Origin: Taibaiella sp. KBW10
GTDB taxonomy: Bacteria; Bacteroidota; Bacteroidia; Chitinophagales; Chitinophagaceae
Assembly: GCF_003852495.1 (NCBI RefSeq)
Contig: NZ_QAJI01000001.1
Location: forward strand, 612,243 to 652,161
DNA length: 39,919 nucleotides
Direction: 5' to 3'
Each line of letters starts with the position of its first letter. Position 1 is the first letter of the stretch. The notes beneath the pieces are model-generated. The model worked only from the letters and a program-made list of their open reading frames with translations. It searched no databases and was not told the DNA's origin. The position numbers and the translations under genes were made by a program. Shown here piece by piece: positions 3,700 to 37,966 of the stretch.

Positions 3700-5418
3700 A
3701 TGTTACGCAAAATCATTACCACCATTTGCCTCCTCTTATTGTCCGGTTTAGTATTCGGGCAAACCCTTACCAATATGTCCTACAACAGTTCCTTTGCTTG
3801 TACGACTCCTAGCCTACCCTTTTTCCCTGTAACAGTTACCGCTAGCGCTTTCCCTGCTAATCCCTCTCTTACCGCCGAATTTGCTTGGGGAGATGGCACA
3901 CCTGTCACTCCGGTACCCATCATGCAATCTTTTTTCACGAGTACACATAATTATAGCCTACCCGGTGTATATACGGTGACGATCGTCTTAAAAGATGGTG
4001 GCGGGATCATTTTAGACACCAAAACCATAACCGTAACGGCATTTTGTAATCTGATAAAAGGAAATATTTTCAAAAGCAATGATGCCAATTGTACTTATGA
4101 TGTCGGTGTAGATGAACCACTTAATTTACCCATCAACCTCGAGCTGTTCAGAGCAGGTACCCGTATTGATGCATTCACCCCAACCGGTTTCTTCTATAAT
4201 ATGGTTACGGGTGCTGATTTAGTCAATGTCTTCACACTTCAGCCGGCCGGCCTTCCTCCCGGATATATGGTGAGTTGCCCTCCCGGTGGCGTACATGCCT
4301 TCAAGTTTGACACCTTAAATAACGAAAACAACACCTTCAATTATGCCCTGGAATGCGATGGTTCTACTAATTTTGATCTTGAGATCCTGAGTATGCGTGG
4401 ATTATTCCGCCCGGTGGCCAATTCTTATATTTATCTTTATGTAGGTAATAGAGCTTGTTTGCCGACTAATGGAATCGTAACTATTGATATTGATCCTCAA
4501 TACACTTTCTCCTCTGCCAATATAGCCCCATTGAGCGTGGCCGGCAATACCGTGACCTGGATGATACCTGGCCTGAGCGGATCAAAAACCGAATTAATCC
4601 GGGTTGTTCTTGATCCGGTAGGTGCACCGCCAATCGGTGGTACGGTGACCACCAGAGCTGAAATCACTCCAAGAGGAGGTGATGTCAATCCAGCCAACAA
4701 TGAGTTGATCCAGGTGGATCCGATCGTTGGTTCGTTTGATCCGAATGAAAAAAGCGTGCTTCCTGCAGGCGATATCAGACCGGGAGAATTACTTACCTAT
4801 ACCATTAACTTTGAAAATTTAGGGAACGATACGGCTTTTAATATCCATGTATTAGATACCTTATCACCAGATCTTGATTTGGCCTCTTATCGCTTTATCA
4901 GCAGTTCTCATGCGGTTAGTACCTATTTCGCCCACAGCGTATCCGGCTTGAACATTATCAAATTCGATTTTGCGAATATACGTCTTGGAGACATTAATGA
5001 TCCGGAGCACAATAAGGGTTATGTTAAGTTTCAGATCAAGGCAAGAGGTGGCTTAGCCCCGGGTACGACCATCGGCAATACGGCACATATCTATTTTGAC
5101 ATTAATCCGGCTGTGGTCACAAATACAACCATAAATCAAATCCCTCAGATAAACGAGTTATCCGGAAAAACACATATCGGTACCCTATCCGGTATCAATA
5201 TTTACCCTAATCCGGCCAGTAATATCGTTTCTGTTGAAAACGGTTATAAACAATCGGTATCGCTTGATATCGTCAATACCATAGGTCAGGTAGTACGTAC
5301 CGCACATGCTCAACCGGGTCTTAGCCAGATCAATCTTAAAGGGCTCAGCAGCGGTACTTATTTTGTATATATAAAAGGCCTAAATAACGTTCAATTCCAA
5401 AAACTGGTTATTCAGTAA
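3700..5418 (+). CDS. T9SS-secreted cell-surface protein with PKD-like and DUF11-like domains
   Basis: A 572-residue exported protein. Order: signal peptide (about 1-20, ending in FGQ); PKD-like domain with WGDG; the cysteine module shared with the upstream paralog to about residue 225; an Ig-like region; then a conserved beta-sandwich beginning GSFDPNEKSVLPAG, with LTYTINFENLGNDTA and AHIYFDINPAVVTNT, a domain often found in Bacteroidota surface proteins. The last ~75 residues form a T9SS type A sorting domain (INIYPNPASN, SSGTYFVYI, QKLVIQ). It should therefore cross the outer membrane through the type IX system, of which PorQ is encoded 2 kb away. The exact role (adhesin or structural) is unknown. 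It is monocistronic, followed by a terminator. Confidence 0.88.
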   Translation: MLRKIITTICLLLLSGLVFGQTLTNMSYNSSFACTTPSLPFFPVTVTASAFPANPSLTAEFAWGDGTPVTPVPIMQSFFTSTHNYSLPGVYTVTIVLKDGGGIILDTKTITVTAFCNLIKGNIFKSNDANCTYDVGVDEPLNLPINLELFRAGTRIDAFTPTGFFYNMVTGADLVNVFTLQPAGLPPGYMVSCPPGGVHAFKFDTLNNENNTFNYALECDGSTNFDLEILSMRGLFRPVANSYIYLYVGNRACLPTNGIVTIDIDPQYTFSSANIAPLSVAGNTVTWMIPGLSGSKTELIRVVLDPVGAPPIGGTVTTRAEITPRGGDVNPANNELIQVDPIVGSFDPNEKSVLPAGDIRPGELLTYTINFENLGNDTAFNIHVLDTLSPDLDLASYRFISSSHAVSTYFAHSVSGLNIIKFDFANIRLGDINDPEHNKGYVKFQIKARGGLAPGTTIGNTAHIYFDINPAVVTNTTINQIPQINELSGKTHIGTLSGINIYPNPASNIVSVENGYKQSVSLDIVNTIGQVVRTAHAQPGLSQINLKGLSSGTYFVYIKGLNNVQFQKLVIQ

Positions 5419-5458
5419 TCGTTTGTTTGGCATAACAATATAGAATACTAAAAATTAC

Positions 5459-5521
5459 AAAGATCAATTCCAGATTAAGGTATCGTCTCTTTCGATAATC
5501 TTTAAAATGGAATTGATCTTT
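5459..5521 (+). terminator. Terminator of the T9SS cargo gene, probably bidirectional
   Basis: A 13-bp inverted repeat (5459-5471 with 5509-5521), a nested small hairpin at 5481-5497, and a T run immediately after on the plus strand. It lies between two convergent genes and is flanked by A/T runs on both sides. Confidence 0.75.
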
Positions 5522-5602
5522 TTTTATGCCGGTATACTGCTCCGATGAAGCGCTAATTTGATCGATTTACAGTAATTAGCTGTTAAGCCTATTTATATAT
5601 AG

Positions 5603-6247
5603 CTAAAACTGGAAAGCCAGGATCCGCGCATCAGTCAATAATTGATTGACCAGTTCATCATGTTTGGAACGCCTTCCCGATACCGCCCAATTGGTACTGA
5701 GCGATTCGTCTGTTTTCTTTTGTCCTTCCAAGGTAAAACGAAGACTGTATTGCTTAAAAAGCATTTCACAATAAGCAATATCTTCTATACGAGCCGTACT
5801 TACTTTGTAGGTACGCACCCGGTTACGATCATCAATTACTTTTTGCAGGGGATACAAAAAAGCCAGCACAACCAAAACGATTATTGTTCCTAAAAGGGCA
5901 AGGTAAAGATGATTAGAGCCCGTACACATACCCAAAGAAGCAGTTGCCCAAATCGTCGTTGCAGTAGTAATACCCCCTACTTTATTATCTTCTTTAAAAA
6001 TCACACCCGCACCCAAAAAACCGATACCGGTAATAATATTTGCCGCAATACGGTCGTAACTCTGTACCCCGATCTTAATAGATAAAATAGTAAAGATACA
6101 GGAGCCAAAAGACACCAGGATAAAGGTCCGCAAGCCTGCAGACTTCCCTCTATACTCCCGCTCTGCCCCAATCGCCAGACCAATGACGATCGACAGCATG
6201 ATCATGATAAATTCTTCGTAAAGAATACCTACCGATTGAAAATTCAT
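5603..6247 (-). CDS. MgtC/SapB family inner-membrane protein
   Basis: A 214-residue membrane protein of the MgtC/SapB family. The N-terminal ~135 residues hold four to five hydrophobic segments with family-typical motifs: GLAIGAEREYRGKSAGLRT, GIGFLGAGVIF and TTATTIWATASLGM. The C-terminal ~75 residues are soluble and resemble the ACT-like regulatory tail of the family. MgtC proteins are linked to growth in low Mg2+ and to restraint of the F-type ATP synthase in other bacteria; the role here is inferred by family only. It is preceded by the terminator of the MlaD gene, so it probably has its own promoter, though no exact -7 box was found. Confidence 0.88.
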   Translation of the reverse strand: MNFQSVGILYEEFIMIMLSIVIGLAIGAEREYRGKSAGLRTFILVSFGSCIFTILSIKIGVQSYDRIAANIITGIGFLGAGVIFKEDNKVGGITTATTIWATASLGMCTGSNHLYLALLGTIIVLVVLAFLYPLQKVIDDRNRVRTYKVSTARIEDIAYCEMLFKQYSLRFTLEGQKKTDESLSTNWAVSGRRSKHDELVNQLLTDARILAFQF

Positions 6248-6311
6248 ATAAGCCCTCTATTTAATTCTGACACTAAAATAATTCATTTTTCAAGTAATCT
6301 GCCCACAAAAA

Positions 6312-6340
6312 ATCCTGTATGGGTTAAAGCCATACAGGAT
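6312..6340 (-). terminator. Terminator after the MlaD-family gene
   Basis: An 11-bp perfect inverted repeat (6312-6322 with 6330-6340) followed, in minus-strand sense, by a run of T. It lies 20 nt past the MlaD stop codon. Confidence 0.8.
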
Positions 6341-6361
6341 ACAGTATCATATTTTTGATCC

Positions 6362-7345
6362 CTAGTCTTTTCTCGCTTTAGACGGAAATATGGATATATT
6401 GATATAACGGCCCGGATGTGCTTTAAGATCAGAAGATAATTCGCCAAGATCTTTCACCGTTTTGTTTACGTTTTCATACAATTTAGGATCATTCAGCAAC
6501 ATACCTACTGTACCATCTTTTGCATCCAGCTTGGTCATCAGTCCATTGAGCTTTTGTGTCGTCGCTTCCAGGTTATCGATGGTTTGCTGAATCTTGGCCT
6601 GAGATAATTGATTGGTTGCACTTTGTGCATTATCCAAAATGCTGTTGATTTTTGCATTATTATTAGCCAGGTTAGCCGTAAGGCTATTGGTATTTTTCAT
6701 GGTCACATTCGCGTTATTCATCAGCGCACTGATATTACCGGATTGTTGTGATAGTGCTCTTGATAAGACTTCCAGTTGCTTCATCGTTACTTCCAGCGAT
6801 GCCATACTTTGGTCGATATGTGCTGCAGTACCTTTCGTAACCACACCTTTCAGATTGGTCATCAGGGTATCTGCATTAGCCACTACACTATTGACATTCG
6901 TCAGTACAGAAGGCATGTTTTCATTCAGCTTATCCATCAAACCTGCAGAAGAAGTACCTATTAACACCGTACCTTCGGGCGCTTGTTGGGTACTGTTCCC
7001 TGAAATGACCTCGATATTCTTTACGTCCGAAAGCAAACCTGCAGAAAGTATCTGAACCTTAGAGCCCACGACCACTTTAAAGTCATCATTAATCGTCATT
7101 TTAACTTTAAACTTCTGATCAGGCATCATTTCAATATTCGTAACCTTGCCCACTTTATAGCCATTGACCATTACTTTACTACCGGTAGTTAACCCTTCAA
7201 CATTATCATAGTAAGTGAAGTATTCCATATCGGAATCAAACAGACTATTTCCCTTCAAAAAATTAAATCCTAGAAATAAAGCCAGTATGGCCGCTAAAGC
7301 CAATATCCCGATCTTTACTTCTTTATTTTTGTTACCTTCTGCCAT
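6362..7345 (-). CDS. MlaD family (MCE domain) lipid-transport protein
   Basis: A 327-residue periplasm-facing protein anchored by one N-terminal membrane helix (about residues 10-30, GILALAAILALFLGFNFLKG). A single MCE domain follows (about 37-117, with YDNVEGLTTGSKVMVNGYKVGKV). The rest is a long helical, Asn/Gln/Lys-rich region (about 130-310) likely to form coiled coils, as in MCE hexamer tunnels. Such proteins are substrate-binding components of ABC systems moving phospholipid between inner and outer membrane. The ATPase and permease partners are not adjacent, which is common in Bacteroidota. It sits 68 bp downstream of porQ on the same strand and may be cotranscribed. Confidence 0.88.
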   Translation of the reverse strand: MAEGNKNKEVKIGILALAAILALFLGFNFLKGNSLFDSDMEYFTYYDNVEGLTTGSKVMVNGYKVGKVTNIEMMPDQKFKVKMTINDDFKVVVGSKVQILSAGLLSDVKNIEVISGNSTQQAPEGTVLIGTSSAGLMDKLNENMPSVLTNVNSVVANADTLMTNLKGVVTKGTAAHIDQSMASLEVTMKQLEVLSRALSQQSGNISALMNNANVTMKNTNSLTANLANNNAKINSILDNAQSATNQLSQAKIQQTIDNLEATTQKLNGLMTKLDAKDGTVGMLLNDPKLYENVNKTVKDLGELSSDLKAHPGRYINISIFPSKARKD

Positions 7346-7413
7346 GTTTTTATTTTAATCTCCAAAAATAGCTAAATATCTATAATGATACCTAAAAATT
7401 CCTAATTGAGAGA

Positions 7414-8517
7414 TTACCAGTTATTATAATCATTATTCCAATGCCACGGTTCTGTTTTATCCCCTACTTTAAAAAGCTTGTCCAAAGCGATATTCAGCCC
7501 GAATTCATTGTAGGCACCTGCAGTAGCCATAAACGAACGGGCATAATGCACCTGAAATTTATTGAGGTATAAACCACCACCAAAGGAGAATCCGGCAAGC
7601 CCTTTCGTTTCCAGAGTACTTAACTCATTCCTACGCAAGTGGTTATAAGCTACAGTTACCGTCAAGCGTTTACCGATGGTCAATTCGCCACCCACAATTA
7701 CGTGCCGGAATAACTTGTCTGCAAAATGGCTTTTGGTATCGGCTACCGTATCAGCCCCAAAAATATTGGATTTTTTATCGGCCGGGTTGTTATAGCGGAT
7801 ATCCCACTGATACAAGTGATGGGCCACCACAAATAATTTGAGGGGTACATTTTTCAGCTGTTTGGTAAATCCGATGTTCAAATCGAAGGGTAGCGGTTCC
7901 GCAGGATTGGCAGGATTATACTTTTTAATCATAAAACCCATATTCTTGGCCACAATACCAATCGTAATATTATTAGCGGTATCAAAATAGACCACACCCA
8001 CATCGCCTAACAGCGCACTCGCGCTGCGATCAGCCAATACTGAATTTGCCCATTTTAAGGTTACCCCATAGCGCCAGTGTTCTTTATACTGACGGGAAGC
8101 AGACAGGCTCACCGCCATATCATTAGCCCTTACGTTACCCAAATAAGTACCATAGATATCTGCTGCTTGAAAAGTACCGTAATTAATACTCTGTAAGCCT
8201 ACACCAAAAGTGGTTTCCAACCTAGGGGAGTGATAGGCATATTGCAGGTTGGTGATCCCGATATCTGCGTAATACAGATTATGATTGGCAGATAATTGAT
8301 TATGAATACCGGGCCGGAACAAAGCCGGGTTTTGCAAGGCTAAAGAGACATCCTGTTCGGGATTGGCCGGGGCCAAACCTCCCAAAGCAGAAGTATGAGG
8401 ACTGTTGGACATATTCAAAAATTCGAATGCCCGCGTTCCCCCTACGACTTGTGCTTGTAAAGACAGAGCACAGCTTAATAAAACCACTGTGCTGTATATT
8501 TTGTATGTTATCTTCAT
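7414..8517 (-). CDS. porQ: Type IX secretion system protein PorQ
   Basis: A 367-residue outer-membrane beta-barrel protein with a signal peptide ending LQAQ, then the family-typical VGGTRAFEFLNMSNSPHTSALGG opening, QNPALF, and alternating beta-strand pattern to the C-terminus (YNEFGLNIALDKLF). PorQ belongs to the attachment-complex side of the type IX secretion system, which removes the sorting domain from cargo and links it to lipopolysaccharide in Porphyromonas. Two T9SS cargo proteins are encoded in this window (3700-5418 and 34738-35994). It is followed on the same strand by the MlaD gene and preceded by fabI. Confidence 0.88.
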   Translation of the reverse strand: MKITYKIYSTVVLLSCALSLQAQVVGGTRAFEFLNMSNSPHTSALGGLAPANPEQDVSLALQNPALFRPGIHNQLSANHNLYYADIGITNLQYAYHSPRLETTFGVGLQSINYGTFQAADIYGTYLGNVRANDMAVSLSASRQYKEHWRYGVTLKWANSVLADRSASALLGDVGVVYFDTANNITIGIVAKNMGFMIKKYNPANPAEPLPFDLNIGFTKQLKNVPLKLFVVAHHLYQWDIRYNNPADKKSNIFGADTVADTKSHFADKLFRHVIVGGELTIGKRLTVTVAYNHLRRNELSTLETKGLAGFSFGGGLYLNKFQVHYARSFMATAGAYNEFGLNIALDKLFKVGDKTEPWHWNNDYNNW

Positions 8518-30147: not shown

Positions 30148-31278
30148 CTATTTCCATTTTTGAGCAATACGCAGCGCAGCATCGATCATTTCCGGCTGCC
30201 AGTGTTCTATATCCCAGCTGCTTTGGCGCAGGGCTGTTTGTTGCATCTGATGCAAGGCATCTTCATGATCCTTTGCATGCTCCAGGATAAAAGACAGGAT
30301 TTGCTGCTCGGCATAAAGATATTCATCCTCTACAACCCTTGTGGTATCTAATGATCCGGAGGGCATAAAGGTATTGTGGGGTTGGTATACATGGCCTTCG
30401 TTGTACTGCATCACCAGGTATTCCATTTGCAGGAAATCGCGGTAAAACTGTAATCTGTCTGCTTCTGTTTGCAGGCCTATTCCCAGCTGCTCCATCACTA
30501 CATATTTCAGGTTGGGACATAAAGGCAGGGCCTTTTGCAAAAGTTCGAAAACCATTTGAGGTACGGCACCATCGTGGGTATCTCTCCGTATTTGCTTCTG
30601 CTCATTCACAATAGACTGTTGCCAACTGCCCCCGGAAATATGAATTTCCCGTACCCGGTCTAAGGGATATAAGGCAATCAGGGTATCAAACGGGATGTTG
30701 AAATTATGCAGCTGACAATAAAAATTGTGGAGATCCAGGATAATAAATCCATTCAACGGTTCGATCAGCTCATTTAAAAAATCGCCATGCTTTTTCACTT
30801 CTTCCAGTGAATAGGAAAACGCCAGGTTTTCCAAACCCACCGGGCATTGGCAAGCCTGTTGTATTCTGGAGAGGCGGTCTCTTCCAATCGCAACCGTACT
30901 TTTGGAATAGGGAATACTCATGGGTGCACCCTTATGAAAATCCGCTCCGGTCATAAAGCCAAAGTGCTCTGTAATATGATCGAAGGTGTATTGTTTGGAG
31001 ACGGTTTCCAGGTGTTGCAACCAGGTTTTCTGCTCGGGCAGCAGGCGTCCGGAAAATAAGGAGAAAAACACCCCGTGGCCAATTAACCTGTTGGCCTGGC
31101 TGTAGGTCTCTAATAATTCCTGAAACCATTCGGGCAGAATATGGTTTCTTTTAAACAGGGTATCAAAGGACCACTCTATAGCGGCTACTCTGCCCTCTTC
31201 TAATAAAGGTAAAGATGCCGACAATATATCGGCATCTAAATTGCAAGCAACTGTGGGTAAAATCTTTGGGGTATCCAT
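30148..31278 (-). CDS. DUF692 / MNIO multinuclear non-heme iron oxidative enzyme
   Basis: A 376-residue TIM-barrel enzyme of the DUF692 family, whose studied members (MbnB, TglH, ChrH) use two or three iron ions to modify cysteines or other residues of ribosomal peptides. The metal-ligand pattern is complete: H68 (IGHGVFF), D100-H101 with E104-H105 (FDHITEHFGF), E150-N151 (GLENLAF), D182 and H184-N185 (LDLHNFY), E211 and H213 (EIHISGG), D233/H235/D236 (RDTHDG), and E263 (VMEQ). Residues beyond ~290 form a helical extension not needed for the barrel. The start at 31278 lies 8 nt after the stop of a 57-residue peptide gene; the upstream in-frame ATG (31302) would overlap it. No separate partner gene is adjacent. 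Likely substrates are the two CxxCGxG peptides. Confidence 0.9.
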   Translation of the reverse strand: MDTPKILPTVACNLDADILSASLPLLEEGRVAAIEWSFDTLFKRNHILPEWFQELLETYSQANRLIGHGVFFSLFSGRLLPEQKTWLQHLETVSKQYTFDHITEHFGFMTGADFHKGAPMSIPYSKSTVAIGRDRLSRIQQACQCPVGLENLAFSYSLEEVKKHGDFLNELIEPLNGFIILDLHNFYCQLHNFNIPFDTLIALYPLDRVREIHISGGSWQQSIVNEQKQIRRDTHDGAVPQMVFELLQKALPLCPNLKYVVMEQLGIGLQTEADRLQFYRDFLQMEYLVMQYNEGHVYQPHNTFMPSGSLDTTRVVEDEYLYAEQQILSFILEHAKDHEDALHQMQQTALRQSSWDIEHWQPEMIDAALRIAQKWK

Positions 31279-31286
31279 ATGTTTCT

Positions 31287-31460
31287 TTAGCCCATTCCGC
31301 AAGCGGGACAGTCAAGGACCGGGTCGTGGTTTACCGGCTGTCCATTCTCCGCGTTAGGGGCTTTTTGTGGTTTAATCTCTTTTTTGTTACAGGAAGTTGT
31401 ACTTACCTGGATGGCAATGCCGACAACGATGGCGCCGATTAATTTTTTAGAAATTTTCAT
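31287..31460 (-). CDS. Putative RiPP precursor peptide 1 (C-terminal CPACGMG)
   Basis: A 57-residue gene directly upstream (8 nt) of the MNIO enzyme. The N-terminus is a lipoprotein-like signal: KK, a hydrophobic run (LIGAIVVGIAI) and a lipobox-like STTSC with Cys24. A short polar linker (residues 25-49) follows, then the last eight residues D-C-P-A-C-G-M-G with Cys51 and Cys54. Substrates of characterised MNIO enzymes are short peptides with Cys-rich cores encoded next to the enzyme, and I recall a similar C-terminal CxxCGxG in the Chryseobacterium precursor ChrA (from memory). The second peptide gene at 32286-32510 is a paralog. It probably shares a transcript with the lipoprotein gene 56 nt upstream. 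The precursor role is inferred. Confidence 0.8.
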   Translation of the reverse strand: MKISKKLIGAIVVGIAIQVSTTSCNKKEIKPQKAPNAENGQPVNHDPVLDCPACGMG

Positions 31461-31516
31461 GATGATAAATGTTTATATGTGATGAGAAACTTGGGTGATG
31501 GATTGGGTTTATACAC

Positions 31517-31921
31517 TTACATTCTTTTCAGCTTGTATATATCTATGGTATTCATGTTTTGCTGTTTGGATAGCACAATAGTATCTCCGTAACTTGTCAT
31601 TTCATAAGTTCCTTCCAGGATCAGCGACCAGTCAAAATCGGGTGCCCAGGTGCACGTATTCACAAAAGAAATTGTGCTACTGGTCATCATATAGGTGCCT
31701 TCACATAATGCCGGATATTTATTTATCGTTGAGCTACCGTGCCAATTACCGGCAGAGAAGTTCAGTGTTATTGCTGACCCCGCACTAGACGTAAGGTTCT
31801 GTCTTTGAAAAGTACCGGAATAGGTACCTTCTGAAAAATGTGGCATATTTCCGCCCATATCTGCTTTACTACAAGCAAAAAAAGTACAACACAATAATAG
31901 AAAGCCAACAATTTTATTCAT
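31517..31921 (-). CDS. Small lipoprotein, probably in the MNIO operon
   Basis: A 134-residue protein with a lipoprotein signal (FLLLCCTFFACSK, Cys17 the likely lipidated residue) and a beta-rich mature part of repeated Gly-Thr-Tyr strands (EGTYSGTFQ, CEGTYMMTSSTISF, LEGTYEMTSYGDTIVLSKQ) that resembles a small lipocalin-like or avidin-like barrel. Two cysteines in the mature part (ALCEG, VNTCTW) could form a disulfide. No named family is recognised. It lies 56 nt upstream of precursor peptide 1 on the same strand with no terminator between, so it may be cotranscribed with the peptide and the MNIO enzyme. Confidence 0.7.
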   Translation of the reverse strand: MNKIVGFLLLCCTFFACSKADMGGNMPHFSEGTYSGTFQRQNLTSSAGSAITLNFSAGNWHGSSTINKYPALCEGTYMMTSSTISFVNTCTWAPDFDWSLILEGTYEMTSYGDTIVLSKQQNMNTIDIYKLKRM

Positions 31922-32285
31922 GATTAAACACTTTTACGCAACGGGAGCATATCTGTTACTACTAAATTGCCCCTGATATTATATTAGACGTAAACTACAT
32001 TATTTTCCTTAGGCCGTTTATAAAAAAATATCATTCCCCATCTAATGCCAACAATTTATTCTATTCTGTTTTGATCCTTTTACGGGGCAACAAGTGTCTC
32101 AAAAATGTCCGTTTTTACCAGGAAGCTTGCTACACAACAATTTTGCGGCCTTGTATACTCCCTTGATTTCCGAGCCCTTAAGTGATGTAAACCGTACCGT
32201 AATGCCCCTATAAATGGTTATTGCGTTGATAAAAATAACAACCGGGCACAATCAGTCATCTTTGCGGCCGGATAATTGCTAAAAT
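31922..32285 (-). other. Non-coding stretch between precursor peptide 2 and the lipoprotein
   Basis: About 364 bp with no open frame longer than a dozen or so codons that looks real on either strand, and no strong hairpin or exact -7 box. It separates the two precursor-like genes and may hold the promoter of the lipoprotein-peptide-MNIO operon. Confidence 0.45.
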
Positions 32286-32510
32286 TTATCCTCGTCCGCA
32301 GGTAATACAGGGTTCTCTCAATACAGGTGCCGTTTCCGCAGTATCGATCAATACCATTGGCGGAGCCATAAAGCTATCTTGCCTTATGGTATCTATTCGG
32401 TTTATATTTCTTTTTTGAGGAATTGCAGTAGCCTCTTTACAAGCGGTGGCCGTAAGCCCACAGGTAATACCTAAAGCAATTGATTGGAGTAAAGCGGTAT
32501 TTATTTTCAT
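32286..32510 (-). CDS. Putative RiPP precursor peptide 2 (C-terminal CITCGRG)
   Basis: A 74-residue peptide gene paralogous to the one next to the MNIO enzyme. Residues 1-33 align without gaps to peptide 1 with about 12 identities, including MKI at 1-3, G14-I15, Cys24 of the lipobox-like site and PQK at 31-33. The C-terminus is E-P-C-I-T-C-G-R-G with Cys68 and Cys71, matching CxxCGxG. The middle (34-66) is longer and includes a Met/Pro stretch (DSFMAPPMVLID). The ATG at 32510 is chosen because the next upstream start (32555) lies in the probable promoter. It is separate from the MNIO operon but probably modified by the same enzyme. Confidence 0.75.
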   Translation of the reverse strand: MKINTALLQSIALGITCGLTATACKEATAIPQKRNINRIDTIRQDSFMAPPMVLIDTAETAPVLREPCITCGRG

Positions 32511-32577: not shown

Positions 32578-32614
32578 AAAAAAAGGAAACCCTGATGAGG
32601 GTTTCCTTTTTTTT
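32578..32614 (-). terminator. Terminator of the atpD-atpC operon
   Basis: A 13-bp or longer inverted repeat (32581-32593 with 32598-32610), 4-nt loop, flanked by long A and T runs, so it works in either direction. It lies 25 nt past the atpC stop. Confidence 0.9.
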
Positions 32615-34737: not shown

Positions 34738-35994
34738 TTACTTTAACACTTGTATCTTTTCTATATAATTACCTGTTGCGGTTTGTATGGCTAAAAAATA
34801 GGTACCATTCGCCAAGTCCGGGAAAGTAAATGTGGTCCGTTCTGTATTTAAAACACGAGATACCCTGCCGGTAGCATCTATTAAGGTAAGCCGCTCTATT
34901 TTTATATTTTTTTCATTTTGTATACGAATATCGCCCAGACTGGGGTTCGGGTAGACCTTAAATCCGCCCTGAGCTGCCGGAAGCGTATTGACAGCAGTGG
35001 TTCCTCCGCCATTGGTCGTTTTGAACAATCCGTGTCCACTGGCAAATCCGGTCTGTTCGTCCAACATTTCTATTTCCATCATTAGCATATCTGCCGGGCT
35101 AGTCGCCTGTACGCTCCAGGTCTGTCCTCCGTTTAAGGTCTTATATATGCGCTGATTATAGACTACGTATCCGTTCTGTTCACTTATAAAATGAACATCC
35201 GTCAGTGAGAACCCGGCAAACATAGTCCCCGGCATCTGCGCCCATGTATTGCCGCCATCACTTGTCTTTAACATCTTACTTGGCGCGCCTGTGGTAATGG
35301 CGAAGCCTAGCTGACTGTTTACAAATTGCATTTGTGTGATGCCCCCATAAACAAATACCTGTTGTGTTTCCGGTATTTCACTATACACGGGAGTCCAAGT
35401 ATTGCCACAATCAATGGTTTTAAATATCATGTCCCGATAAGCTACATTGCCCTGCTGTACCAAGCTCACAAAACCGGTACTTTGATTGATAAAATGAATA
35501 TTTGTAATGTAATGGCTCTCCGGGATCAGTTCTTGTGTTGTAAAGGTATCACCTCCATTAATGGTTCTACCTAAGATACCCATACTGCTTACAAAGCCGG
35601 TGTCTTTATTCAGAAAATGGATGGTGCTGAAATAATCACCCCCACTGATAGTATAGTTCATCTGTTGCCAGGTTTGCCCGCAATCCAAGGTTTTGTAGCA
35701 GGTAGGCGCTGTGGCAAAGGCAGCATAAGCCGCTACGAAGCCTGTATGCTGGTCTGTAAAATGCACTTTGAAGGACGAGGCATTCGTAAAAGCAAGTGTA
35801 TCCCAATGCACACCGCCATCTACAGATTTAAGCACACCGTCTCCGTCTGTTGAGGTGGCAAACAGGGTATCTTTATTCAAAACATTAAGCTGCGTAATCG
35901 CTGCAGTGGGCGATGCGGAGCGCATGGCCCACTGTGCCCGGGCTTGCACAATGAGGGCACTGAAGCTCAGTACCAATAGGATGATCTTTTTCAT
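34738..35994 (-). CDS. Ycf48-like beta-propeller protein with T9SS sorting tail
   Basis: A 418-residue exported protein with a signal peptide (LVLSFSALIVQARAQ), then about seven sialidase/BNR-type beta-propeller repeats of the Ycf48 (photosystem II assembly factor-like) class. Each repeats a K-T-x-D-x-G-x-T-W motif (KTLDCGQTWQQM, KTIDCGNTWTPV, KTSDGGNTWAQM, KTLNGGQTWSVQ) and a HFxxxxTGFV strand. The last ~75 residues form a T9SS type A sorting domain (FKVYPNPSLGDIRI, GTYFLAIQTATGNYIEKIQVLK), predicting outer-surface delivery through the PorQ-containing system. The organism is not photosynthetic by any sign here; the propeller is a general surface-protein module. Confidence 0.9.
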   Translation of the reverse strand: MKKIILLVLSFSALIVQARAQWAMRSASPTAAITQLNVLNKDTLFATSTDGDGVLKSVDGGVHWDTLAFTNASSFKVHFTDQHTGFVAAYAAFATAPTCYKTLDCGQTWQQMNYTISGGDYFSTIHFLNKDTGFVSSMGILGRTINGGDTFTTQELIPESHYITNIHFINQSTGFVSLVQQGNVAYRDMIFKTIDCGNTWTPVYSEIPETQQVFVYGGITQMQFVNSQLGFAITTGAPSKMLKTSDGGNTWAQMPGTMFAGFSLTDVHFISEQNGYVVYNQRIYKTLNGGQTWSVQATSPADMLMMEIEMLDEQTGFASGHGLFKTTNGGGTTAVNTLPAAQGGFKVYPNPSLGDIRIQNEKNIKIERLTLIDATGRVSRVLNTERTTFTFPDLANGTYFLAIQTATGNYIEKIQVLK

Positions 35995-37559: not shown

Positions 37560-37569
37560 AAAATTTATG

Positions 37570-37644
37570 TGGAAGCACACGGATTCGAACCGCGGACCCT
37601 CTCGGTGTAAACGAGATGCTCTGAACCAGCTGAGCTATGCTTCC
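37570..37644 (-). tRNA. tRNA-Val (anticodon TAC), copy 3 in transcription order
   Basis: A 75-nt cloverleaf on the minus strand. The acceptor stem GGAAGCA pairs with TGCTTCC, the anticodon loop is TTTACAC with anticodon TAC (Val), and the T loop is GGTTCGAATCC. Discriminator A; CCA is not encoded. The tRNA sequence is identical to the two upstream copies. Confidence 0.96.
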
Positions 37645-37667
37645 AAAATAATATTAAAAGAACGATG

Positions 37668-37742
37668 TGGAAGCACACGGATTCGAACCGCGGACCCTCT
37701 CGGTGTAAACGAGATGCTCTGAACCAGCTGAGCTATGCTTCC
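37668..37742 (-). tRNA. tRNA-Val (anticodon TAC), copy 2
   Basis: 75 nt, the same sequence and structure as the neighbouring copies; anticodon TAC. The spacer to copy 3 is 23 nt and nearly identical to the spacer before it, so the unit was duplicated in tandem. Confidence 0.96.
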
Positions 37743-37763
37743 AAAAATATTAAAAGAACGATG

Positions 37764-37838
37764 TGGAAGCACACGGATTCGAACCGCGGACCCTCTCGGT
37801 GTAAACGAGATGCTCTGAACCAGCTGAGCTATGCTTCC
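37764..37838 (-). tRNA. tRNA-Val (anticodon TAC), copy 1
   Basis: 75 nt, identical to the other two copies; anticodon TAC. It lies 41 nt downstream of tRNA-Leu and is transcribed from the same promoter. Confidence 0.96.
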
Positions 37839-37879
37839 AAGTAATTTTCAAAAACCATGATTTACTGTTAAATCATTTT

Positions 37880-37966
37880 TGGTGCCCAGAACAGGAATCG
37901 AACCTGCACATCCTTGCGAATACAAGATTTTGAGTCTAGCGCGTCTACCAATTCCGCCATCTGGGC
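37880..37966 (-). tRNA. tRNA-Leu (anticodon CAA)
   Basis: 87 nt including an encoded CCA end, with the long variable arm of leucine tRNAs (TATTCGCAAGGATG region). The acceptor GCCCAGA pairs with TCTGGGC; the anticodon loop CTCAAAA gives anticodon CAA. The anticodon stem CTAGA / TCTTG has a T-T mismatch at the second pair (28-42). Confidence 0.95.

Follow-up and report, generated by a model that had tools for sequence, protein, structure and literature searches.

A DybA/DybH-type RiPP-lipoprotein locus in Edaphocola with a probable second precursor peptide ending in CITCGRG

The locus analyzed here is best explained as a DybA/DybH-type RiPP-lipoprotein locus of Edaphocola, in which the C-terminal tail of one small peptide (peptide 1) would be ringed with a loss of 4 Da and the peptide exported and lipidated, and in which another peptide encoded further upstream (peptide 2) would most likely be a second substrate; we put the probability of this reading at roughly 0.88. 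By analogy with characterized relatives, the enzyme of the locus, an MNIO (DUF692) protein, very probably forms a ring in the cysteine-containing tail of a small lipoprotein. The window (that is, the whole 39,919-nucleotide stretch of DNA that was analyzed) sits in contig C1 of a 3.6-Mb genome deposited as Taibaiella sp. KBW10; the host is an Edaphocola species (Chitinophagaceae). Downstream of atpD and atpC, the minus strand carries, in this order, a hairpin, peptide 2, a 134-residue lipoprotein, peptide 1, and the MNIO gene. Listed by position, these features are:

30148..31278, minus strand: ChrH/DybH-type MNIO, 376 aa, with its ATG at 31278 and its stop at 30148
31287..31460, minus strand: precursor peptide 1, 57 aa, ending in CPACGMG, matched by NF050125
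31517..31921, minus strand: predicted lipoprotein, 134 aa, family not assigned, between the two peptides
32286..32510, minus strand: candidate precursor peptide 2, 74 aa counted from the ATG, ending in CITCGRG
32578..32613, minus strand: terminator-like hairpin after atpC, from the sequence (-20.9 kcal/mol, z -5.9)

A first-pass annotation made from the letters alone had singled out the enzyme, the CPACGMG peptide, whose gene ends 8 nt before the enzyme's ATG, and the CITCGRG peptide 0.8 kb upstream, and all three were confirmed; the 134-residue lipoprotein gene was not mentioned in it. It had rightly taken the locus for a DUF692/MNIO RiPP system with cysteine-containing tails.

PF05114 matches MNIO residues 53-257 with 102 bits (cut-off 25), and NF050165 (MNIO_ChrH), the model named for the Chryseobacterium maturase, matches residues 11-375, nearly the whole enzyme length, and reaches profile position 360 of 363. 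The score of the latter match, 381 bits, lies below the equivalog cut-off of 600, which we count against our best explanation; other MNIO models score far lower (BufB 84 bits, HvfB 72 bits). The nine iron ligands named for TglH (PMC10880893) have as their counterparts H68, H105, E150, D182, N185, H213, D233, H235, and E263, all of them unchanged across an alignment of 13 sequences that includes the window's, so that the full ligand set claimed for the enzyme at first pass is indeed there. The mapping was made by hand, seven positions through the TglH alignment and H68 and H105 through 3bww only, because the TglH alignment stops short of both. An AlphaFold2 model of the enzyme (mean pLDDT 89.8) has TglH (8hci/8hi7) and MbnB as its top Foldseek matches, and beyond the Pfam domain it places helices at 272-294, 319-334, 338-346, and 362-375; extra C-terminal helices of this kind mark the ChrH-like branch of MNIO enzymes (PMC12636315). 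The enzyme is thus predicted to be a TIM barrel with the full iron-ligand set and a C-terminal helical extension. A second MNIO is encoded elsewhere in the genome (L008, contig C5, 125314-126063), with a stronger PF05114 match (181 bits).

Peptide 1 has each of the features of a DybA-type precursor: a C-terminal CPxCGxG, a lipobox cysteine (STTSC, at Cys24), a gene adjacent to that of the MNIO, and a score over the cut-off with NF050125 (ChrA_rel_RiPP; 66.6 bits, cut-off 40), while with NF050124 it scores just 12.1 bits against a cut-off of 50. Together, the enzyme, peptide 1, and its lipoprotein leader are an Edaphocola example of an already published kind. A preprint of November 2025 (PMC12636315) describes the ChrH-like subfamily in Dyadobacter, Chitinophaga, Hymenobacter, and others: DybH, ChsH, and HymH give a product lighter by 4 Da at a C-terminal CPxCGxG, the DybA product contains a macrocycle and a hydantoin, the seven-residue tail alone is recognized (CPACGMG on GFP suffices), no partner protein is needed, and in E. 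coli DybA becomes a triacylated lipoprotein by way of its lipobox ('DAG-RiPPs'). Export of the product had been predicted correctly at first pass, but the idea that lipoprotein-type leaders might be new does not hold, since use of the DybA leader has already been demonstrated in E. coli (PMC12636315).

The chemistry is known for the Dyadobacter, Chitinophaga, and Hymenobacter enzymes and the lipidation for DybA, and by analogy the same steps would take place in Edaphocola. In the cytoplasm, the last seven residues of peptide 1 would be bound by the MNIO, which, using O2 and its multi-iron center, would remove four hydrogens from CPACGMG, such that the sulfur of the first cysteine would become linked to the second cysteine and the backbone after the second cysteine would be rebuilt into a hydantoin; the product would be 4 Da lighter and unmethylated, and no partner protein would be required. 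After export, Lgt, which is present in the genome, would put diacylglycerol on Cys24, and cleavage by signal peptidase II followed by N-acylation would yield a membrane-anchored peptide with a ringed tail. We infer a change of -4 rather than +10 Da because of the branch to which the enzyme belongs and because a ChrI gene was not found in this genome. We take ChrI to belong to PF08592 (formerly DUF1772), of which the whole genome held no ChrI-type member at E 0.01. This second argument is weakened by the finding that ChrI itself is dispensable, ChrH methylating without it (PMC12636315). An S-methylated (+10 Da) product as in chryseobasin would suit an enzyme that matches the ChrH model end to end, but the Chitinophaga, Hymenobacter, and Dyadobacter enzymes all gave unmethylated product (PMC12636315), and we regard this outcome as improbable.

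The link between enzyme and tail motif is conserved well beyond the window, as the first-pass annotation had expected. Among 294 family genomes searched for the enzyme, 20 contain a homologue, full length in 19 (the window's included) and a fragment in G162, and an ORF ending in CxxCGxG lies just upstream in 18 of the 19 other loci fetched, the G162 fragment being the exception. That fragment (L051) has no precursor in the 13 kb fetched and is apparently a decayed copy; the locus is retained in G085, G214, and G259, which belong to the same genus. From the 188 relatives found in a scan of genome contigs, the best 80 were examined, some of them from the same genomes as in the family search. At least one CxxCGxG-ending ORF (ATG start, at least 40 codons) is found in 79 of these best 80 of 188 loci, with one precursor in 67, two in 10, three in 2, and none in L147. 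The ORFs number 93 in the 80 loci (1.49 Mb), all on the strand of the enzyme, whereas three first-order shuffles yielded 0 each, which excludes chance as the source of the motif. L147, where a ChrH-like enzyme (5240-7818) on an 8-kb contig has no such ORF and the upstream gene lies on the opposite strand, counts against our explanation. A loose lipobox ([AGS]C) is present in 91 of the 93 precursors from the best 80 of 188 loci; a strict PROSITE-like pattern failed 28 of the 93, and the looser rule was used in its place. Two Saprospiraceae precursors (L150, L127) end in CGPCGMG, another natural departure from CPxCGxG.

Counts over whole genomes point the same way where the motif is specific enough. 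In 288 family genomes, CPxCGMG-(TRR) was matched in 19, the backwards control having 0 among the matches listed, and 17 of the 19 carry the full-length enzyme; in the other two, the G234 match ends in TGG with no stop, and the G271 match is 78 nt short of a contig end, so that any enzyme gene would lie beyond it. Two genomes with a full-length enzyme lack CPxCGMG and have CLACGMG (G149) or CPACGQG (G253) instead. Substrates at a distance were considered and rejected, since all 21 CPxCGMG-stop places in enzyme-bearing family genomes adjoin the enzyme gene. In the window's own 3.6-Mb genome, CxxCGxG-(TRR) occurs 3 times, in the two peptides and in a startless frame of 14 codons, and yields no third precursor candidate; the backwards control gives 2, so this count alone proves nothing.

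Peptide 2 is the less-described part of the locus, carrying a conserved tail variant that the NCBIfam model does not recognize. It has a lipobox-compatible TATAC at Cys24, but its CITCGRG tail falls outside CPxCGxG, with Ile in place of Pro, and departs twice from CPxCGMG, by the lack of Pro and by Arg for Met. NF050125 gives it 27.7 bits, below the cut-off of 40 and over residues 1-33 only; we rejected this match as proof of membership, for it covers the signal-peptide part alone, and the same search gives sub-cut-off matches in 9 of 14 control genomes. Its gene starts downstream of the hairpin and is therefore probably transcribed apart from the atp operon, although the hairpin is not among the terminators of a consensus scan whose promoter and terminator counts were near chance. 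A gap of 364 bp separates the peptide 2 gene from the next gene downstream, so that it and the enzyme are perhaps transcribed separately.

Searching 288 genomes for the exact CITCGRG-stop gave three with a match (the window's genome, G240, and G192), each in an MNIO locus of this genus and each with the peptide directly after atpC. Edaphocola is represented by 5 genomes in the set, with the enzyme in 5/5 and the CITCGRG peptide in 3/5; in E. aurantiacus and E. flava, only 166 bp separate atpC from the lipoprotein gene and peptide 2 is absent. In a tree of 89 rows whose bootstrap had not settled, these two species are nearest to the window (support 98/88; genus clade 100/92), and a single loss there is the simplest history. 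When counted by hand, the seven tail codons of peptide 2 differ from those of G240 at 7 bases and from those of G192 at 6, all of the differences being synonymous, and the remainder of the peptide is strongly divergent in both sequence and length across the three genomes.

Precursors ending in CxxCGRG are present in seven ChrH loci: CITCGRG in the window, G240 (the same as L158), and G192, CPPCGRG in G225 (the same as L097) and G101, CIACGRG in L119, and CPACGRG in L159. In six of the seven this peptide is an extra, upstream-most precursor; L159 has no other detected precursor. All five that were scored with NCBIfam (window, G240, G192, G101, G225) fall below the precursor cut-offs; a second precursor in G240, ending in CPACGMG, does so as well (37.7 bits against 40), so a low score is not special to the CGRG ending. 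The two departures of CITCGRG also occur singly in precursors that are the only ones detected at their loci (CLACGMG in L109 and CLSCGMG in L096; CPACGRG in L159), from which peptide 2 is, to judge by sequence, probably a second substrate of the same enzyme. If so, Ile-Thr would most likely lie inside the ring and Arg in the Met position.

A loose search for CxxCG(R/S)G-(TRR) gave matches in 98 of 288 genomes, which is the background rate, many of them ending in TGG or having Ser, and this count alone shows nothing. We therefore consider the places themselves: 20 CxxCG(R/S)G-stop places away from MNIO loci, chosen from the 98-genome list and including the four CGRG-stops in enzyme-bearing genomes (G085, G119, G253, and G259), CITCGSG in G062, and CPVCGRG in G277, all lie in frames of 9-47 codons, and none is plausible as a precursor, 18 being without any ATG frame of at least 10 codons. 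Real small exported peptides with a CGRG ending were thus seen nowhere but at MNIO loci. On the tree, from which duplicate sequences, the fragment in G162, and L119 (because its tblastn segment continued through an upstream stop) were left out, the CGRG loci show no more clustering than chance would give (5 changes, with 57 of 500 shuffles giving a number as low).

The alternative is that peptide 2 is a competitive ligand, a decoy, or a decaying paralogue, with Ile for Pro and Arg for Met stopping turnover. Its score below the family cut-off and its absence from the two nearest relatives, both of which we count against our own explanation, would fit this, as would the 364-bp gap and the recognition by DybH of a CPACGMG tail (PMC12636315). 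However, the tail changes only synonymously across three genomes in which the peptides are otherwise widely different, where plain decay would not retain it, and other loci show each departure by itself, in a precursor that is the only one detected there. We consider a non-substrate role for peptide 2 unlikely, if worth keeping in mind.

The suggestion of a new two-substrate arrangement stands in part. Two or three precursors occur in 12 of the best 80 of 188 loci, so that multiplicity as such is not unique to this locus, but neither the arrangement nor a CGRG ending is mentioned in the main text of PMC12636315, the supplements of which may list such peptides; its motif is given as CPxCGxG, with no test of Ile for Pro in that text, and a search of a literature library returned no paper on CITCGRG. 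The lipobox is absent from three of the seven CGRG peptides (L097, L158, and the G192 counterpart), the first two being the only ones of the 93 precursors without [AGS]C, and present as [AGS]C in those of the window, G101, L119, and L159; the counterparts of peptide 2 in the two sister species, without a lipobox, would be exported unlipidated. This leads to a tentative proposal that we hold to be possible rather than probable, namely, that ChrH/DybH enzymes have two regular kinds of substrate, lipid-anchored CPxCGMG peptides and a separate CxxCGRG class with Arg in the modified tail, sometimes Pro-less and about half of it exported unlipidated, so that one enzyme would supply the same ringed tail in two forms, one bound to the membrane and the other released and more cationic. 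If true, CxxCGRG is a class that current models miss.

The 134-residue lipoprotein between the two peptides belongs to no NCBIfam family, has no Pfam match above the cut-off, and does not end in CxxCGxG. A 50% identical homologue occupies the same position in E. aurantiacus and E. flava, none was found in the others of the 99 loci searched, and G240 and G192 have another CPACGMG peptide in its place; it is possibly an accessory protein, or merely a neighbor. A ChaN-family (PF04187) gene adjoins the locus, convergent with the MNIO gene. Together with the metallophores made by the same enzyme superfamily (PMC12636315), this neighbor might suggest that the products bind copper or iron, as bufferins and methanobactins do, and that the locus serves metal homeostasis. 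But a ChaN homologue adjoins the MNIO locus in only 7 of 99 loci searched, all in Edaphocola, and the DybA product, with a single free thiol in its tail, lacks the UV feature of the aromatic groups in methanobactins and bufferins (PMC12636315); we consider the metal-binding reading very improbable, and the metal-binding or redox role raised at first pass found no support here. Elsewhere in the window, three near-identical tandem tRNA-Val (tac) genes adjoin a tRNA-Leu (caa) gene (37569-37966, minus strand), and a YCF48/BNR-repeat protein with a secretion-system C-terminal sorting domain (34738-35994, minus strand) has homologues near the atp genes in the 4 other Edaphocola genomes.

These results add Edaphocola to a very recent RiPP-lipoprotein family and bring out CxxCGRG as an overlooked precursor variant, a natural experiment on the tolerance of the seven-residue recognition motif to substitution. 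If peptide 2 is a substrate, it would extend the recognition rule and hint at two product forms; the paired arrangement would then offer a handle on function, as its two products would carry different charges and might also be located differently.

Among known systems, bufferins, oxazolins, methanobactins, and pearlins share the MNIO fold and iron ligands with the window's enzyme but have other motifs and mostly require partner proteins (PMC12636315, PMC12452194), the latter paper mapping the MNIO families. Chryseobasin (ChrA/ChrH/ChrI; PMC10214503), proposed at first pass as the nearest described system, is a near relative with the same C-terminal CPACGMG and enzyme subfamily. Its precursor is longer, predicted to be exported through signal peptidase I, and S-methylated (PMC12636315), and its cluster has ChrI, ChrE, and ChrP, of which ChrI was not found in the window's genome. 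The nearest system is instead the DybA/DybH - ChsA/ChsH branch of PMC12636315, from Dyadobacter crusticola and Chitinophaga sancti, which resembles the window in having a ChrH-like MNIO with a C-terminal extension, no partner protein, and a short precursor just upstream with a lipobox cysteine and a C-terminal CPACGMG. Compared with these systems, the Edaphocola locus adds the CITCGRG peptide and the intervening lipoprotein gene.
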